Positions 24,427-43,200 of a stretch of DNA of 64,000 bases are shown piece by piece. Below the pieces are notes generated by a model, which was not told where the DNA came from, ran no database searches, and saw only the letters and a program-made list of their open reading frames with translations. The stretch is taken from positions 248,001-312,000 of the forward strand of contig JAQGBZ010000019.1 of NCBI GenBank assembly GCA_034687125.1, written 5' to 3'. The position numbers and the translations under genes were made by a program. Source of the stretch: Neelides folsomi. Taxonomy: Eukaryota; Arthropoda; Collembola; Neelipleona; Neelidae. How positions within the stretch are numbered: the stretch's first letter is position 1; every line of letters begins with the position of its first letter.

Positions 24427-24879
24427 TTATTGCAAGACTAAAAATGAGCAATTTGTAATCCCTTTGTCTCGATCTTCAATGACACCAAAAGCCGCGTAGG
24501 TCAAATCCAGAATTCGCCCAGGAACAAAAGGCCCGCGATCGTCAATTACAACGTCGACGGTTTTTCCATTGGACAAATTCGTCACCCGAACCTTCGTCCC
24601 GCAAGGGAGAGTTTTATGGGCAGATTCCATGGCAAAGCGATCAAATCCATTTCCACACGCTGTGGGCCATCCTTGAGGAATTTCTCCGTCGGCGCCATAC
24701 CAGCTGCATATCCCAGTTTCTAAAAATTTTACGTAATCAAAATTTCAACAAATTACTTAATTTAATAATAAGCATTTATTATTTTAATTAATTAAAGGAA
24801 TTTTCAATAATTTACCAGAATAATTCTGTCCAAATATCTCTAGGAGAATTGAAAAAAGTATAAAATAAAATAAAGACAT
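24427..24879 (-). CDS. Secreted RlpA-like double-psi beta-barrel protein
   Basis: Two exons, 24879-24816 and 24719-24427, give 118 residues. Residues 1-18 are a signal peptide (MSLFYFILFSILLEIFGQ). The mature part begins ETGICSWYGADGE and carries the RlpA/DPBB_1 hallmarks TACGNGFD, MESAHKTLPCGTKVRVTNL, NGKTVDVVIDDRGPFVPGR and ILDLTYAAFGVI. The His of SAHKTLP and the Asp of DDRGPF correspond to the conserved polar pair of the fold. Bacterial RlpA acts on peptidoglycan; eukaryotic relatives include expansin- and barwin-type proteins. Cysteines at SICSWYG-like, TACG, LPCG and TNCS positions suggest a disulfide-stabilised secreted form. Enzymatic activity is not established. The intron and signal peptide show it is a genuine nuclear gene rather than contamination. 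An earlier in-frame ATG (24987) is less likely because it buries the signal peptide. Confidence 0.85.
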
Positions 24880-24999
24880 AATGTAATTGGGAATTACAGG
24901 TATGAGGGAATTGATTCGATTACCTTTATTGAACACGCCAATTGATGTAAGTGGATTATATAGTGAATTACAAGTCATAAATTCCAATTAAAGAATAAA

Positions 25000-27374: not shown

Positions 27375-28699
27375 TCACGTTGGTTGAGCAAATTTTGCTT
27401 CTCGTGCAATTCTCCTATCTTCTTTCTCTTTTTCGAATTTTGACTTCCACATGGGGTCGTAAACGTATTCGTTGAGAACTTCAAGCTTTGCCTTTTTCTC
27501 AACTTCACGCCGAGGTTTCTTGGCTTTCAAAATGGCAATTTTCTCTCCGAGCAATTTATTCAACATTATCCCAACTTTTGAGGCCATCTGAAATTAAAAT
27601 TAATATTTCAAATTAAAATTGACTTTAATGTTTAAACAATCAAAGTATAAAATAAATTATATCGACTTGACTGTATAAATATCTTTTAAATTCTTTGAAC
27701 TGATAAATACTGACAGTATCAGAAATTCTTTAATCATATTTAATAATTTCGTTTCTTTTTATATTATCAATATTATTAAGATAATATCAAATCTTACAAT
27801 AACTGAAGCGGTGACTGAACGATGTTGATACGACCCTTGACCAATTTTGTCCAAAGAAGTAATTTGCCCATCTGGTGTGACACCAACAGCGAGCTTCCCT
27901 TTGGAGACGGATTCTTCTTCCAACGTCGCATCAACCACAAAATAAAGTCCAACTTTCGGTAAGGTCAAAATGACAGGAGCTGAGGAGACGTCAAGGAATG
28001 AGAATTCAAATTCATCTTTGGTGAAAACCGGAGTCGGAGCTCCCAAGTCATGTCGGACACCAACGGGATGAGGAATTTCAGTTAGACCAAGACAAACTTT
28101 AACGCCCATTGAAATGACGTCCAGTAGATTCCCTCCACATTGAAGCACCAGGATGTCAACCCCAATGACGAAAACCTTCTTCTCGGGTATAATACAAAGA
28201 GAGGTCAGGTCAATTGAACCGGAACGGTCAAAAGAAGCCGAAAGGAGACGACAGATGAAATTGGCCAAAGCGTCACCTCCTCGTCCCTCGAAATCCGGGG
28301 ATGCAGTTGGAGATCTAAAAACAAATTAAATTTTAGTCACAAATAAGAGAAAAATTAAAATAAATCTAAAACACGACTCACAATTAAATAAAAAGCATTG
28401 TTGTGAAAATTAATATTTTTATAAACTTGAATATAAATTTCTTACACATCAACGAGAAAATTAATCATTCCTTGATTTGGCTTATTCGGTTGTGGCTCAT
28501 CAACTGTCACTTGGGAAGCGACGATGATTTCCGTTTCGGCCAATTTGACCCTCAGAGAACCATGAGAGTTTGAGACGACGTCGACGGACAAGAGACCTGA
28601 ACGATATTGGAGTCGAGTTCGCCCATCAACCCTTACATCTTCTGACACTCCCATGACCAAATAATACTTCTCTTCTTCGCTCAATAAACACTCAGACAT
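27375..28699 (-). CDS. EXOSC7: Exosome complex component RRP42 (EXOSC7 orthologue)
   Basis: Non-catalytic RNase PH-fold subunit of the RNA exosome ring, acting in nuclear and cytoplasmic 3' RNA processing and decay. Exons 28699-28446, 28314-27798 and 27587-27375 keep frame and give 327 residues. Family blocks visible: EDVRVDGRTRLQYR, VVSNSHGSLRVKLAETEIIV, PDFEGRGGDALANFI, SIDLTSLCIIPEKKVFVIGV, LQCGGNLLDVISMGVKV, VGLYFVVDATLEEE and GKLAVGVTPDGQITSLDKIG. The last exon, beginning MASKVGIMLNKLL, is a continuation of the C-terminal helix and not a separate gene. It adds a lysine/glutamate-rich extension, so the protein is somewhat longer than the human one. The catalytic arginines of bacterial RNase PH are not expected in this subunit. 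Confidence 0.93.
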
Positions 28700-29070
28700 T
28701 TTACACCCTAATTAATCTAACCGACAATTAATTATTAATTAATTACAAACTAAATGAGTTAAAAATATGTGGATAAGTTTAATTTCATTAAACAATTTTA
28801 AAGTCCTAGAGGTAAGAATTACACGTAATGCAAATTCCAGCTTGAGTGTTCGACTGTTCGACTAATTGTAATTGATTATACTTTGTGAAATATTTAACCT
28901 TTAATAATTTAATGAAATTATTGGCGAAAAAGATATTCGAAATTGGAATCGAGTGGAATTGCGAGCGGCAGATGAAGCACATGCGGTTTGTAAAAGGAGC
29001 GAATTTGTTGGGCTGTAGGGGATAGGGGAGGAACGCTAAGGCCCCTTTTCTCTCCTCCTAACTCTCAACT

Positions 29071-29159
29071 GACTTCGTGGCCTAATGGATAAGGCGTCGG
29101 ACTTCGGAGTTTCGAACGAAGCGATCCGAAGATTGCGGGTTCGACTCCCGTCGGAGTCA
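29071..29159 (+). tRNA. tRNA-Arg(UCG): tRNA-Arg (anticodon UCG) with a 16-nt intron
   Basis: Acceptor stem GACTTCG pairs with CGGAGTC, with A as the discriminator base. The D arm is GGCCTAATGGATAAGGC and the T arm has GGTTCGACTCCC. The anticodon stem TCGGA/TCCGA encloses loop C-T-TCG-G-A, with anticodon TCG at 29104-29106. An intron of 16 nt occupies 29108-29123, directly after position 37, the canonical site. It can pair internally (TTCG/CGAA), and an oligo-T stretch follows the gene as a pol III stop signal. Confidence 0.95.
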
Positions 29160-29903: not shown

Positions 29904-32199
29904 TTAATATCCCTTTGAATATGGATTGTAAGCTCCTCCGCCATGTCCTGGATATCCCGGTGGCCCCGGAATTCCTGGAGGTCCGGGAGGCCCAGGAAGT
30001 CCCTTACGACCCTTCGGCCTAGAATCAACACTTTACGAGTACTCGCAAAATTGATTACAAAAATTATACCTTAATTTATACACCATATAACTCCTTAAAT
30101 CACCATTTTTTAAATTGTAATAAACCAAAGTAATATGACATCGTATTTACAAATATATTATAATGTTAATTACACCACAAAGTATAAAATATTAAAAATA
30201 TAGAAAATTGGCTTTAATACATTTTGAATGCAAAGGTTAATATAAGAGTATATTTGCAGTATACTACTTAATATTAGTCAATTAAACTTTAATACGAATA
30301 ATATGTTACTTAAGAATAATATCCTATATCTGTAGTTTGAAAATGTATGAATTTACCCTGGGAATCCTTTAGGCCCTTTTGGTCCTGATCCTCCCATTAG
30401 TCCTCGTCTCAATTCAGGAGAAGACTCGAAGGCTTGGGGATATCCACCCATTCCCATCTAGTACAAAAGAGATGATTAAAAGAGATCTCAAAGTATATCA
30501 ATTGAGAATCTCAATGAAGTTCACTACAACTTCTTCAATTTAAATTCCATCTCATAATAAGTAAACACAAACATTGTGCCTTCGTCCTCAGCAATGTAAT
30601 ATTAGTACATATTTACAATGGGAAAGCAATGTTTATTTTAATTAACTACAATAGGATTAACAGATTATCATGTAAACATTAGTAATTTAAGCTTTTGTAA
30701 TGAAATAATGAAAAGCATGTACCATACATAAAACTGAAAGTTTACAATTCTGAAATAGTATTTAGTACTCCAATTGATGATCCAATTGAATATTGAATTG
30801 AATAATAAAATAATAACTAAACATCAGTAATTTAATAGCAACTTAATATATTATATTGTTGTTAATAATAATTAATAATAATTATTTACACAATAATCGA
30901 ATCGGATAAATAAACTTACAGTTGGATAATGAGGACTTGAACCAAACATTAGCGAATCGTCTCCTCCACTTTGCGCACAAGGTGAGGAAGGTGAAGAAGC
31001 GCAAGGTGAAGAACACGGCAATCCTCCACAAGTTCTTCTAGCCATCATCCCGCTGCCTCCAATTGATGTCACTTGGCTTCCTGGCACTCCTGCCGGCCGC
31101 CCTTGGCCCAGTTGGAATCCCAAGTCCAGGAGCCCGCCCTCGCCCTTGGCCCTCGCAGACCCAAGGGCAAATGAAGAGCCGGAGGAGTAGGATGATTCCC
31201 CACGTGTCCACATATTAGTGGAATCGCAGTTTCCACCAGAACAACCAGGCATCCCACCACCGCAATTTCCACCTGAACATCCGGGCATTCCAGGCATCAT
31301 TCCGGGCATTAAGGAGTCCTCTTCAGGTCCAAGGCCTAAATTAAATCCCGAGCCTGATCTCGATCCGATTTGCGGTGAGTGTGGAGAAGAGCCCGGGTAT
31401 TGTCCTGGATAGGAACCCGGGTAGGATGTGAATTCATCAAAGCTGCTTCCAAGTTCTGCTCGGCCGCTCATTGAGGCCGTTTGTTGAACAAAGTCTTGTG
31501 GTGATCCGCCAGAATGTCCTGCAGGGTAACGAGGTCTGCTTCCAGGATATGAACCGCTGGGGTAAGAGCTAGAGCTACCAGGGTAGGAACCCGAACTAGG
31601 ATAACCACCAGGATATGAACTACCCGGATAAGAGCCACTTGATGGGAAATACGATCCGGGCATCTGTTGTGGCTGACTTCCTTGCCCATGACGGGGTTGA
31701 CTTGATCCACAAGGTGAGCCAGGAGAAGCAGAGGAACAAGGCGATGGGCCGGAAGGGCCTGAAGCTCCGCCAGAAGGAAATTGGCTACTGCTTCCGTGAC
31801 CGTGTGGAGAGCCGTCGGGGCTTCCTGGGAAACCAGGGAATGAACCGAAGCCCACTGGAATTTCTTCATTTTCTTCAATTCCCGTCGCTCCGTGCATTGA
31901 CACTTTGGCATATTCTTTCCTTCGCCGTTTCTTCATTGGCATTTCGCCTAGAGAAAAAAAATCAAATTGTTAATTACTTACTATTACATAAAATTGCAAT
32001 TAAGTTATGAAAATTAACCATACTTACATGGTGGGCATGGTTGTGGCTGACAAGGAGATCTTTTCTCTCTCAAATGTGTTTCGTGGGTTTGTTGCAGATC
32101 GAAAATCTGGTTTTTGAGGTCGTAATTAAAGACGAGTAGGGAGACGGAGACCGTCGCCAGAGCGACGCAAATGAGGACCAACACTCCCTTCAACTCCAT
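29904..32199 (-). CDS. Cuticle-collagen-like protein with Ser/Gly/Pro/Tyr-rich core
   Basis: Structural cuticle protein candidate of 471 residues. Exons 32199-32028, 31947-30920, 30457-30357 and 30018-29904 keep frame. The N-terminus MELKGVLVLICVALATVSVS is a signal anchor. It is followed by LQQTHETHLREKRSPC with a REKR furin-type cleavage site and a Cys cluster (CQPQPCPPC), as in nematode cuticle collagens. The large second exon is unusual: instead of long Gly-X-Y runs it has repeats such as SSGSYPGSSYPGGYP and two GMPGCSGGNC copies. Gly-X-Y triplets appear only in the last two exons (GPKGPKGFPGPKG, then GLPGPPGPPGIPGPPG). The protein ends GGGAYNPYSKGY, suitable for tyrosine cross-linking. 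An ATG at 32277 would extend the N-terminus. Confidence 0.85.
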
Positions 32200-37200: not shown

Positions 37201-40200
37201 AGTTAGCATAGCATAAAAAGGATAAATGACATATGACATCACTTATGTTATACTTTATGCTTTGTCTTATGTCAAAATTTAATCTCTCTAAAATAAGCAC
37301 TAATATTAACAGATATTGAATTTAATTACTTACTGTGAGAACCACTACGAGGAAAATAGATGCAGCGATGAAGAAATTTGATAGGGGAATTTCAAGATGA
37401 GCATAGTAGAATGATGAAATCCAAATTCGACCACCATTCTTTGCATGTGTAAACCGCAACTATCATTAAATAATTTGATTTAAAAGTTAAAAAGTGATTA
37501 TAGGTGATTACCAAGTAATATTAATAGTCTATTATAAAAAATAGTTATAATTATCAAAGTAATGTTCGGAATAAGTTATTACATATAAATGAATGTGATA
37601 GGGCGAGCCATAATTTACCCAAAATTTTCAATATACCATAAATATGATAATGCTTAAATGTGCACCCAAAATAATCAAATCAAATTACTATAGCTATATT
37701 ATTAGTTAACATACCTATAGAGCAAGTCAGATTTCTGTGTTGACCTTTTTTTCTAAAATGACTTCAAGTTATTACTACTAAAATTACATATCAATTCAAT
37801 GAAAAAAAACTTACATGTTATTTGCCTTTATTACCTTGTTTTCTGTTTTCTCAAATTTAATAAACATTATTTTGCCATATCTAATTTAATAGATTTCTTG
37901 TAATCATGTTTTCATAAGATATTTATATCTTATCTGCGAGGAAAGATGGTAATTTTAAAAAAGGTCAACACAGAAATCTGACTTTGCCAGTACTTATTAG
38001 AAAATAGGTAACGTAAAAATATGTAGTGAAAATTTATCATAATCATGAAATCATGATACATATTAGGCATGAAAAATAATTTGATAAATTACCCATATAT
38101 GACTGAAATTGAAATTGACGAGTTATTAGTAAACCCAGTCCATTAAAAGGTCACACACGAGTTCAAATGATATTTTTTAAAACAATTTTTATCTTAGGTG
38201 TCCACAACTAATATTTATTAGTGACAATACTGATATCATATATATCTGAAATGAATTAGAAAATTCTAGACATGTTAAGTTGATTAATTAAATTCTAGTG
38301 ACAATTAGAGAAAAAAAATTGCCTAATAAAACATCATACACAATTAATTAATTAAAGCAAATCAAAGTTAATCAAGTTTTATAACAGGTAATTGTGTTCT
38401 AATATGTTGTATGTGATCCCCTGGCCTCAAGCAATGCTCCAACTCGGGCTTCGCAAGAAGCGTTCAGCGTCTGAAGACGCTCGAGCGAAATGTCGTTCCA
38501 AGCGGCTTGAATGGCGTCTTGGAGAGCTGTGGTAGAGTGAAACTGTTGACCATTACCGCAAACTTAATTGGCGAGGTATCCCCACAAGTTTTCAATTAAA
38601 TTCATATCCGGGGAATACCTCGGACAATCCATTAAACGCTCACCGGCATGTGTTGATTTAGATCGGTGAGGGGGTGCATTATCCTGCATTAGGATCCAGT
38701 TGTCTCCTCCTATTTCATGTGCCCGATCCATATTTGTTGAAATGAAGTCTAGATCAGTCTTCCCGTTGTAACCGAATCGAATGCCAGCCCATACCATGAC
38801 AGTTCCGCCTCCTCTGCATCTTTTTGTAAATGTTCTTGGATTTTTTCTAGAGTCGGCCCAATATCCTTTATAGCAATCCGGCTCATCAAAATTGAACCGC
38901 TTTTCATCAGTAAATATCACTCGTCGCCATCGGAGTCCCCATCTAAGTTTATCTCTTGCCCAATTCAATCGTTCAATCCTGTGAACCTCCTTCAAGCTTG
39001 GCCTTCTTTTCATCATTTTTCGTCTGATGTGGGGGGACGATTTAATCACATTCAGGATTGTTTGACGACAGTATCCAAGTCTGAGTAAGCTTTCATGTTT
39101 GCCAAAGACTGGGTAGAGTTGCTCGCAGCGTTTAAAATTCTGCGCTTTTCCCTTGGTGAGACAAGTTTGGGCCGTCCGGTTGGTTTCCTTTGGCCGTAAT
39201 TCTCTCCCATCCTGAGAAAACTGTATAAGGATGATCTTGAAATGCGTAACCTCCGGGCAATGTCGGTTTTGGTGACTCCACGATTGAGTAACTGGGCGAT
39301 TTGAGCCCGCTGGGCAACAGTCAAAACTTTCCCTCGAGTCATAACCTAGTTTAACATTTTAACTGTATGTTAACAACGGAAGTAAATTTATTTTATAAAC
39401 AAAATATACAAGTAATCGAATATTAATTAAATAATAATAACACATTATTTACCTGGTCAAATGGCTAATTAATTGAAGAGTGAAAGGCGGTGAAAGGAGA
39501 TGTGTGATTTTAATTGGACAAAATCAAGTTCCAAAAAATTGAAATTTTTAATTAACTTTTTCCCCAACACAATCTTTCTTGAAATGATTTGTGATATTGT
39601 TTTACTTGATAACAAAGCATATTTAAGCGGGGTACCATTTAAATATTTAGCCGCCTCGAAAAAATATCTTTAGTTTGCCATTTGTGTGATCTTTTAATGG
39701 ACTGGGTTTAGTGAGTTAGTAAGACAACAGTTAAAATTTTTACAAAAATGAACCATTTTTCAATTTATATGCAATTTATTAGCCACTTTAAAACGCTATC
39801 TAAAATAATTTACAATGTCGTCTTGGTTATTAATAAAATTTTCGCCAAGTAAAAGTTATTTATCCCTTTTATATGGAACGGTCCTAATGTTGTGGACAAG
39901 CAGGAATCTTTCCAATTTATGGACTGGTCCAACGTTTGGACCAGTGAATTTCCTTGTTCATTTTCCTTTTCTTCAAACATCTTTACTGTTTACAATTGTC
40001 ATTCAAATTGCTGGTGGACTTAAGATTAACTCTTGGTAAGTAAATAATCACATTCTAATAATATTGAATATTTAATTTTAACAATTTTTGGCATTTATTA
40101 AAATTATAGAGAAATGTCTAAGAGGAAAAGAGGCGAGTCTGACTTTTCAGACTCTTCTTTCTCTGAGGATTCGAGAAGTGAAAGCGATGTTGAGATTTCA

Positions 40201-43200
40201 GAAAATGTGGAAAATGACCAACCTCAAATTGACAGCGAATTCATTAATGGTATAACTACATTAAACTTTAAAACATAAAATTATTAAAGCTTAAAATTGA
40301 TGATTGTTTAAAAATATTGGCTGAGTTATCGTTTTCTGGCTGGGATTTCCGGCAAATTCCGGTAGTTGCCGGATTGGAAGATATAAATTACGGTAGTTAC
40401 CGGGTGCCGTCACGGTAACTACCGTCAAACATTTAGGCAAATGCCGTCACGGTAACTGCCGCAACGGCACTAGGTAGTTACCTTAATGGCAACTACCACG
40501 ATTTGATTTATTTCATTTATATTAGGTTAGGTTAGGTTAGGTTAGGTAAAAAGAACTAAAGTCGTAATTCCTATCAATACTAACCTAGCCTATCCTAAAT
40601 TAATCATAAACAAATAAAATTGAATGACTTTAATACTGAAGACAGATGCCGTCACGGCAACTACCTAAATTTCCCGGAAATCCCAGCCAGAAAACGATAA
40701 CTCAGCCTTTTGGCCGAACCATGGATTTGGATGAAAACAAAGGAGCATTCACCAATTCCCTTCAATGAACCATTTGACGACTTTTCATCTGGTTGGAATA
40801 TACCAGAGGAGGATTTTGGCAGTGAGATCAAATGTTTCAATGCTCTTTTCACCGAAGAAATTAAGGATCTCAATGTCATCCAAACAAATCTCAAAGCGGA
40901 GCAAGACATTGTTCGACAAATCGGGTAGCTGAAGGATACAAAAAGAATGAAATCATGGACTTTTTTAACTCGCAATGAATTGATGAAATTCTTGACTGTT
41001 CAAATATTGATGGGAATTGACTGAAAGCCTAATGTGTTCTATTATTGGTGCAGGAATCCTCTTGTCGGAGGAAGCATCATTTCAAAAATCTTGACATCAG
41101 ATCGCTATTTTGAAATATTGAAAGACTACAAAATCCACTATATATGGGAAATGGCAATGAAACAATTCACAAGAGTCCACATGATAAATTAGCAATTGAT
41201 GAATCTCTGATGCTCTTCAAAGGCCGACTCATAATTAAACAATTTATTCCAACAAAAAGATCTTGTTTTGGAGTGAAAATATTTTGCATTCGGGATGAAA
41301 CTACAAGATTCCTTCTAAATTCAAAAATATACCAAGGCAAGGGGCAAACTTTTGATGATCCTATTTTAATGTTTGGGTATGGTGGACCTCTCGTTCTTGA
41401 CTTGATGAAAGCCTTATTTGAATCAAACCACCAATTATTCCTTGATAACTGGTTTACTTCTCCGACTTTGGCCCACCATTTATTGCAACAAAGGACGTAC
41501 AAATATGCGGAACAGTACGGAAAAATCGGAAATTTCTTCCAATGTTTGACAACCTGCGAAAAGGTCAAGTTGAGGCGTGGGTTTGCAAAGGAGTACAAGT
41601 TGAGTTGGAAGGATAGGCGAAATGTCCACATGATATCTACATGCCATCATCATGAAATGATTAAAGTAAGCGATACACTTTACAAGCCTTTGACCGTCAT
41701 GGACTACAACGACAATGTACGCTAAATCGACCTTGCTGACATGCAGATTAGCCCTTACAATATAAAAAGGAAATCTCTCAGATGGTACGTGAAGACGTTT
41801 TTTCACCTTATTGATCTTACATTGTTCAACGCATTCTGCTCTGAACTCTGAAAGAAAATTCTGAAGACGAATTCACCAAACTTGTCATTCTTGGATTTTC
41901 GAATGAAATTAATTGAGCAAATTCTCGCTTCCGTTGATGTGAATCCAGCTTATCCCAATCAAAATTCTCATCGAATCAAATCCTCGCCGAAGATGCAAGG
42001 TCTGTTCAATTTGGAAGAAAGTCAAAAGATAAATATTTCACTGCAAGACTTGTAACGTCTCTTTGTGTCCAACAGCTTATTTTGAGGATTATCACACAAA
42101 ACTAACGTTAAAATAATTTAACTACTAATGATTTTTAATTCATGTTTATTATTCATTTGATATATTTATGATCTTATCTAATTTTAGAAATCTGGATTTC
42201 TCTTTATGTATGATTAGTTGGTTTTTTTCTTAATTTTTAGTAAAAAAACATGAAAAATGAAGGTGAAGGAGTCATTTTTTGCATTTTTAACGCAAGGTCA
42301 AGCCCCTAAAGGGGCGAGACCGAATGTAGCCTATGACCCAATCTATTCGATCCTGCTTCATTTTCACGCCTAAATTGACCATTGGTCCCTCACAGGAGTA
42401 AACAACATTTGGGGCCAACTGCAGCATATTACATAATGGCCCCATCAAATGCTCATTTTCCTATTCTTTTCAAATTGTTACTTTTATTTACAGTTGACTT
42501 TTAACCATTATTAAATAATTAAAATAAATTAACTTGTTCATAATAATAATAAATTGTTATTTCCTATCTTAAAAATCCTTCTCAGAATTATGAAATTCTT
42601 TCATTTACTGCCTACCAGAATTTGGAAATCATCAGAAAAATAAATACCATAGTTTTGATTAGAAATTTCATTCCCATAAATATAAAAGATTTTATGCGAT
42701 TTTCTGCCAGGTCAAAAGGTTATTTATAGTGTTAAAGATTAATCCACTTTCTTTATGAAACTATGGAGATTATGTTAAAACAAATAGTCATTTAATAAAT
42801 AAATACGGGGCTTTATGCAATTATAGTACTTATGAGTATAATATACCAATATACATACATAGATAATTCATATTTATTACATATAACGTAAATAAGTAAT
42901 TTGTAAAATGATTTACAATCATTGTAATGGCCGTTGAGAGTACTCCAATGTCTGAAGAGGCGAGGGCAAAGAGATAGGAGTAAACAACGCCTTTGAGACT
43001 CGGACGAGTCAGAACGATGAGATTCAAGACATTCCCCAACATCCCGATCCCAACCACCGTCCAACCCAGAACCTAAAATGATCAAAAACTTCAAATCCAC
43101 CCGATTAAGGGAATTATCCCTTTCCTCTCGTCTTTTCAACTCCTAAGATCAAAAAAGACAAGCTTCGATTTTCCAATCATTAACTAAACGCTTTTTAACT

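Follow-up and report, generated by a model that had tools for sequence, protein, structure and literature searches.

How does a protein barrel of bacterial type come to be encoded, behind an intron and a signal-peptide-like exon, in the nuclear genome of an animal? The question is raised by a gene, hereafter C19, on the minus strand (24427–24879) of the 64,000-nucleotide stretch of DNA analyzed here (the window), which covers positions 248001–312000 of a 436-kb contig in an assembly of 75.1 Mb and 840 contigs. An earlier note on this DNA described C19 as a bacterial-type RlpA-like barrel in a spliced, secreted nematode gene and suggested horizontal transfer with domestication; its observation is confirmed in part in what follows, its transfer reading is supported, and its nematode host is wrong. 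The answer that we favor, with moderate confidence as a whole, is that C19 is a transferred RlpA, secreted and acting on peptidoglycan. On this view, a pancrustacean arthropod would have taken a gene for an RlpA-type barrel from a bacterium or bacteriophage into its nuclear genome, where the gene acquired an intron and an exon for a host signal peptide. The present product would be a secreted, disulfide-bonded, single-domain protein of ~97 residues after cleavage. Working outside host cells in the manner of a lytic transglycosylase, this protein would bind and cleave the glycan strands of bacterial peptidoglycan, in digestion or in defense against bacteria. The parts of this proposal differ in strength: the nearest relatives make horizontal transfer highly probable, the cutting of peptidoglycan is a tentative assignment from sequence, and a digestive or antibacterial role might be its use.

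The C19 gene and its product

C19 consists of two exons encoding a 118-residue product, with the stop codon in exon 2. The gene structure read from the DNA, together with two candidate transcription signals, is as follows.

24957–24962, minus strand: TATA-like sequence, 83 bp ahead of the start codon, by consensus match alone
24816–24879, minus strand: exon 1, comprising 21 codons plus base 1 of codon 22; it holds the start codon and a hydrophobic segment resembling a signal peptide
24720–24815, minus strand: phase-1 spliceosomal-type intron of 96 bp, GT..AG (GTAAAT..TTTTAG), 86% A+T, the AT-rich intron of the earlier description
24427–24719, minus strand: exon 2, with the entire DPBB (RlpA-type) domain and the stop codon
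24263–24268, minus strand: AATAAA polyadenylation-like signal, 159 bp downstream of the stop codon

The ATG at 24879 is likely, rather than proven, to be the start codon because the 36 codons separating it from the preceding stop contain one more in-frame ATG; the TATA-like match at 24962 would favor the downstream choice. The N-terminal signal claimed previously corresponds to a hydrophobic stretch (best 11-residue Kyte–Doolittle mean 2.77) that is likely a secretion signal, the signal peptide itself being putative; the gene is probably spliced and its product secreted. Between 24300 and 25200, one bacterial-type promoter was found versus a mean of 3.1 in shuffled sequences, and no bacterial-type terminator versus 0.8, so that neither is in excess.

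DPBB_1 (PF03330) is the sole Pfam domain in the protein, which ends with the barrel; its score of 74.2 bits (E 9.8e-21) exceeds the curated cut-off of 28.8, and the predicted fold is the RlpA-type barrel. The five motifs quoted in the earlier description (SWYG, AHKTLPCGT, VRVTNL, DDRGPFVPGR and ILDL) are all present. A sequence search of the PDB gave three matches, the best being the bacterial RlpA-like protein PA4485 (structure 4avr), 41–42% identical over the fold, and the DPBB barrel of Pseudomonas aeruginosa RlpA, a septal ring lytic transglycosylase, is 49% identical to C19 in the best segment. RlpA models head the NCBIfam ranking, with MPL36 at 95.8 bits (cut-off 430), rlpA TIGR00413 at 80.1 (82.15) and PRK10672 at 77.5 (201), although none of the six models listed reaches its own cut-off. 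The expansin model EXLX1 scores 20 bits (cut-off 100), which bears out the claim that the barrel lies closer to bacteria than to expansins. Unlike bacterial RlpA, C19 has no lipobox and no SPOR domain, carries Asn in place of a conserved Glu, and possesses four cysteines and a eukaryotic-type signal and intron. Its first cysteine is residue 26, within the barrel, and a lipoprotein signal is accordingly absent. Taken together, the bacterial-type barrel, the eukaryotic gene structure and the integration among host genes make horizontal transfer with domestication, as first proposed, the best account of the locus.

Relatives, donor and route

Relatives were searched in prokaryote, plasmid, phage and viral-contig sets and in the host genome. 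The prokaryote scan covered one genome per species for 84,980 species, and the best 80 of 395 loci were kept. These are 41–60% identical to C19 and come from Fusobacteriota, Pseudomonadota, Bacteroidota, Actinomycetota, Spirochaetota and other phyla, a biased sample in that the exact search word VTNLSNGK occurs in most of them; the top blastp score among them belongs to Leptotrichia (103 bits, 51%). Further relatives came from 103 plasmid and 57 phage records and from 15 viral-contig loci, of which the top three by score are 57–58% identical. Four short RlpAs from viral contigs, L108–L111 (52–58% identity), have in common with C19 the Cys43/Cys61 pair and the loss of the conserved Glu, but lack its Cys26, Cys112 and GADGEIP loop. 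The actinomycete Goodfellowiella (L016) shares WYGADGEIP.G, FDR.AM and LDLTY.AFG, whereas its cysteine positions, like those of Nonomuraea (L096) and Streptomyces (L097), are unlike those of C19. The conserved Glu is present in L016 and L096 and is Asp in L097. This last locus, on a plasmid of Streptomyces sp. NBC_01497, fuses its RlpA-type barrel to a ricin-type beta-trefoil lectin domain, in contrast to the bare barrel of C19; the adjoining plasmid gene is also annotated as a ricin-type lectin.

The host genome itself holds DPBB_1 in six places, five of them over the cut-off: C19, two in tandem on C38, and one each on C354, C438 and C80. Those on C38 (L003, L004), C354 (L005) and C438 (L002) read as four expansin/papain-inhibitor-like barrel genes. 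One C38 copy scores 98.4 bits on the papain-inhibitor model and matches DPBB_1 and Barwin in Pfam, and in both C38 copies an intron comes directly after a signal-like first exon. C80 (L006, 1168–1840) is another gene of RlpA type, split into four exons, with GT..AG at every junction, 70.2 bits on the rlpA model (draft junction) and 49.4 bits on DPBB_1. It carries an equivalent of Cys26 and a cysteine four columns away from the Cys112 column, positions that may hint at common descent with C19. Two frames near C80 had no Pfam match, and the one searched against the PDB had none there.

Trees were built from microbial rows and these two RlpA-type host copies. The first, thinned at 80% identity from 82 rows to 59, includes 57 microbial rows; the larger, of 82 rows, has 80, namely the same 57 and 23 hand-chosen additions (eight of 21 viral-contig loci, 12 plasmid or phage loci, the Pseudomonas and Escherichia coli genes and the PA4485 fragment). 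C19 groups weakly with actinomycetes in the 59-row tree (49/76, C80 included) and with Leptotrichia instead in the 82-row tree (75/77), and neither tie is supported. In the 82-row set, approximately unbiased tests gave p-AU values of 0.477 for C19 with L108–L110 and 0.456 for C19 with actinomycetes; a grouping with Bacteroidota, picked after viewing the 59-row tree, was marginally rejected in that set (p-AU 0.045). C19 and C80 are sisters in the 59-row tree (47/58) and are not in the best 82-row tree, yet their sisterhood is not rejected there (p-AU 0.365), and the branch of C80 is very long.

Would the gene have come by way of a fungus or another eukaryote, or belong to a wider and older arthropod family? 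We consider this unlikely, though it deserves weight: the collections searched were microbial and viral rather than fungal or animal, the host genome has further papain-inhibitor-like/Barwin-like barrels, and C19 and C80 differ in intron number (two exons versus four). Opposing it, the matches found are bacteria and phages, and the authors who described the aphid rlpA genes found, in the portion of their paper available to us, no eukaryotic rlpA beyond aphids at that time (PMC2662799).

Active site, cysteines and function

The residues that bear on function are listed below, with counts taken over the 80 microbial alignment rows.

24706–24708, minus strand: Cys26, first strand; Cys in 0/80 rows, and Cys in C80
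24676–24696, minus strand: loop GADGEIP, residues 30–36; ADGEIP/GADGEI occurs elsewhere, among the loci compared, only in Goodfellowiella L016
24655–24657, minus strand: Cys43; Cys in 4/80 rows, the viral-contig loci L108–L111
24649–24651, minus strand: Asn45, at the conserved Glu position; Glu in 59/80 rows, E120 in Pseudomonas RlpA
24601–24603, minus strand: Cys61; Cys in 5/80 rows (L108–L111 and L122, the last likewise a short RlpA on a viral contig); presumed partner Cys43
24538–24540, minus strand: Asp82; Asp in 78/80 rows, D157 in Pseudomonas RlpA
24505–24507, minus strand: Asp93; Asp in 79/80 rows, D168 in Pseudomonas RlpA, Ser in E. coli RlpA
24448–24450, minus strand: Cys112, last strand; Cys in 0/80 rows; presumed partner Cys26

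C19 retains the catalytic Asp as Asp93, its Pseudomonas counterpart D168 being termed catalytic in the accessible text of PMC9712689. Both conserved Asp residues and the conserved His are common to C19, bacterial RlpA and PA4485, and 26 of the 31 near-invariant columns are retained (21/31 in C80). The retained fold, these columns and both Asp residues argue for a working protein. The four cysteines of C19 would form the disulfides Cys26–Cys112 and Cys43–Cys61. The idea that all four are host inventions was dropped, as Cys43 and Cys61 are present in viral-contig RlpAs, a sample skewed toward Cys61 in that AHKTLPCG was a search word; other cysteines occur in the first and last strands of some bacterial and phage rows. 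The missing Glu, likewise, may have been inherited with a donor subtype.

Expansin-like loosening and protease inhibition are both real alternatives as functions. The same acquired gene could serve a non-lytic, expansin/loosenin-like wall-loosening or glycan-binding purpose on plant, algal or fungal walls. Nematode expansin-like effectors (PF03330), described as acquired by transfer in the part of PMC4901422 at hand, share DPBB_1 with C19 but are labeled expansin-like and belong to a nematode host. We regard such a function for C19 as improbable, since its sequence is RlpA-like with only a fifth of the expansin cut-off score, the second expansin domain is absent (Pfam) and Asp93 is retained. 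A secreted protease inhibitor, as Rhizoctonia RsRlpA is reported to be in the available text of PMC7662947, and like the Streptomyces inhibitor SPI, is a somewhat weaker candidate still, C19 itself scoring just 17.9 bits on the papain-inhibitor model (NF041659, cut-off 150). As for C80, it retains the conserved Glu and has Gln at the catalytic-Asp position, whereas C19 has the Asp without the Glu, so that C19 might be read as an enzyme and C80 as a binder or decoy that lacks catalysis. On the boldest reading, which is a long shot, a short RlpA of phage or actinomycete type was acquired independently by an arthropod other than an aphid and became a secreted, wall-acting pair with complementary active-site losses, directed against bacteria in the gut or hemolymph.

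Several observations weigh against a transferred, secreted RlpA acting on peptidoglycan. The exon structure of C19 is a prediction from DNA, and the protein falls 2 bits short of the curated rlpA cut-off. The conserved Glu, an important residue, is replaced by Asn45; the four viral-contig rows with the Cys43/Cys61 pair have Gly (three) or Pro (one) at this position, never Glu, so C19 may belong to a subtype of uncertain activity. The Pfam scan showed no domain for wall binding, such as SPOR or a lectin, though a C-terminal SPOR domain is not universal in RlpA. The actinomycete, Leptotrichia and viral-subtype groupings all stand unrejected, so that the donor may lie with any of them. The search covered microbial and viral relatives and the host genome; a fungus may have passed the gene on, or it may belong to a broader family in arthropods. 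Finally, aphid RlpA, the best precedent, has been argued, in the section of PMC9116674 available, to have no link to peptidoglycan metabolism.

Genomic setting, host group and arthropod parallels

C19 lies among eukaryotic genes, of which the nearest identified are these.

27759–28711, minus strand: RRP42 (exosome) gene, a eukaryotic neighbor, in two open frames (27759–28325 and 28442–28711)
29071–29159, plus strand: tRNA-Pro(CGG), 89 bp by Rfam or 91 by ARAGORN, apparently intron-bearing

RRP42, within 3 kb of C19, matches exosome RRP42 of entry 6d6q at E 2.7e-60, and beyond the tRNA stands a gene for a rhodopsin-type seven-transmembrane receptor. These neighbors are eukaryotic, as had been stated, but not those of a nematode, the assembly being that of an arthropod. 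That C19 is a misassembled bacterial fragment or a contaminant, as its bacterial-type sequence might suggest, is very improbable, given the intron interrupting its coding region, the signal exon upstream, a host-like third-position GC (0.39 versus 0.40 in part of RRP42 exon 2) and RRP42 nearby on the same long contig. Farther off in the window, ~14–17 kb from C19, are pieces of a Tc1-type (DDE_3) transposase (38567–39358, minus strand) and a piggyBac-type (DDE_Tnp_1_7) transposase (41144–41722, plus strand); a Gly/Ser/Pro-rich low-complexity frame of 356 residues (30872–31942, minus strand) has no Pfam match.

We conclude that the host is a hexapod or crustacean, that is, a pancrustacean arthropod, seemingly one with a small genome. 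Chitin_bind_4 has 39 matches in the assembly, and the two such loci read (L092 and L093) we take to be cuticle proteins of the insect/crustacean RR type. The mitochondrial contig C742 (L106 and L107; 15,157 bp), whose cox1 has 11 in-frame TGA codons, reads I-Q-M-nad2-W-C-Y-cox1-L2-cox2-K-D-atp6-cox3-G-nad3-A-R-S1-E-F followed by nad5-H-nad4-nad4L-T-P-nad6-cytb-S2-nad1-L1-(rRNA region)-V. Its tRNAs were called by ARAGORN and its protein genes are our own reading, cox1 alone being tool-named; tRNA-Asn was not called, and an odd tRNA call at 1361–1417 was set aside. We take this order, with Leu2 between cox1 and cox2, to be the pancrustacean ground pattern, and it is our chief clue to the host. 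The receptor family 7tm_6 has three matches, of which L094 fits 7tm_7 better (57.7 versus 36.4 bits) and L095 has 7tm_6 as its single match (29.6 bits), so that the host may or may not be a winged insect. The spider-mite marker intradiol dioxygenase was not found in the assembly, where positive controls matched. Searches of the assembly without a positive control found no nematode cuticle-collagen domain, no plant-parasite markers GH45 or PL3 pectate lyase, and no Rfam SL1 among the 50 of 21,760 candidates scored. GH5 has one match (27 bits, cut-off 23.5), in L091 on C254, a gene with a signal-like start that is apparently split by introns and reads like a fungal-type exo-glucanase. A nematode origin of C19 can be dismissed: the Srsx, Srw and Srx labels nearby are weak, none over its own cut-off, the neighboring receptor fits general 7tm_1 best, and the 39 cuticle domains, the pancrustacean mitochondrial order and the lack of the SL1 22-mer in the assembly (≤1 mismatch) contradict a nematode host.

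An arthropod host places C19 beside known cases. Aphids acquired rlpA with a signal exon, a knottin exon and a barrel exon, highly expressed in bacteriocytes and with the donor unresolved, as far as the available portions of PMC2662799 and PMC2829048 state. Aphid RlpA1–5 thus share with C19 a bacterial RlpA barrel in an arthropod nuclear genome, an own signal-peptide exon and an unresolved donor; they form a cluster of five and carry knottin (ICK) domains, whereas the 118 residues of C19 hold no domain beyond DPBB_1. C19 scores 103 bits to bacteria against 84 reported for aphid RlpA4, although in different databases. Scattered RlpA occurs among the transferred genes of scale insects (PMC10158165) and none was found in soft scales (PMC11084805), according to the passages available from each. 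No report of the C19 gene is among the matches listed from the open-licence literature. C19 is a bare-barrel RlpA of the aphid and scale-insect kind in another arthropod, and it likely adds to the cases in which an animal has adopted a wall-acting protein from bacteria. With the host corrected, any conclusion resting on a nematode would be wrong. If the transfer is true, arthropods acquired RlpA-type barrels on more than one occasion. C19, a bare secreted barrel with no knottin attached, would then be the simplest form such a protein could take, and would allow a clean test of the question, left unanswered in aphids, whether this fold is put to use in animals for cutting peptidoglycan.
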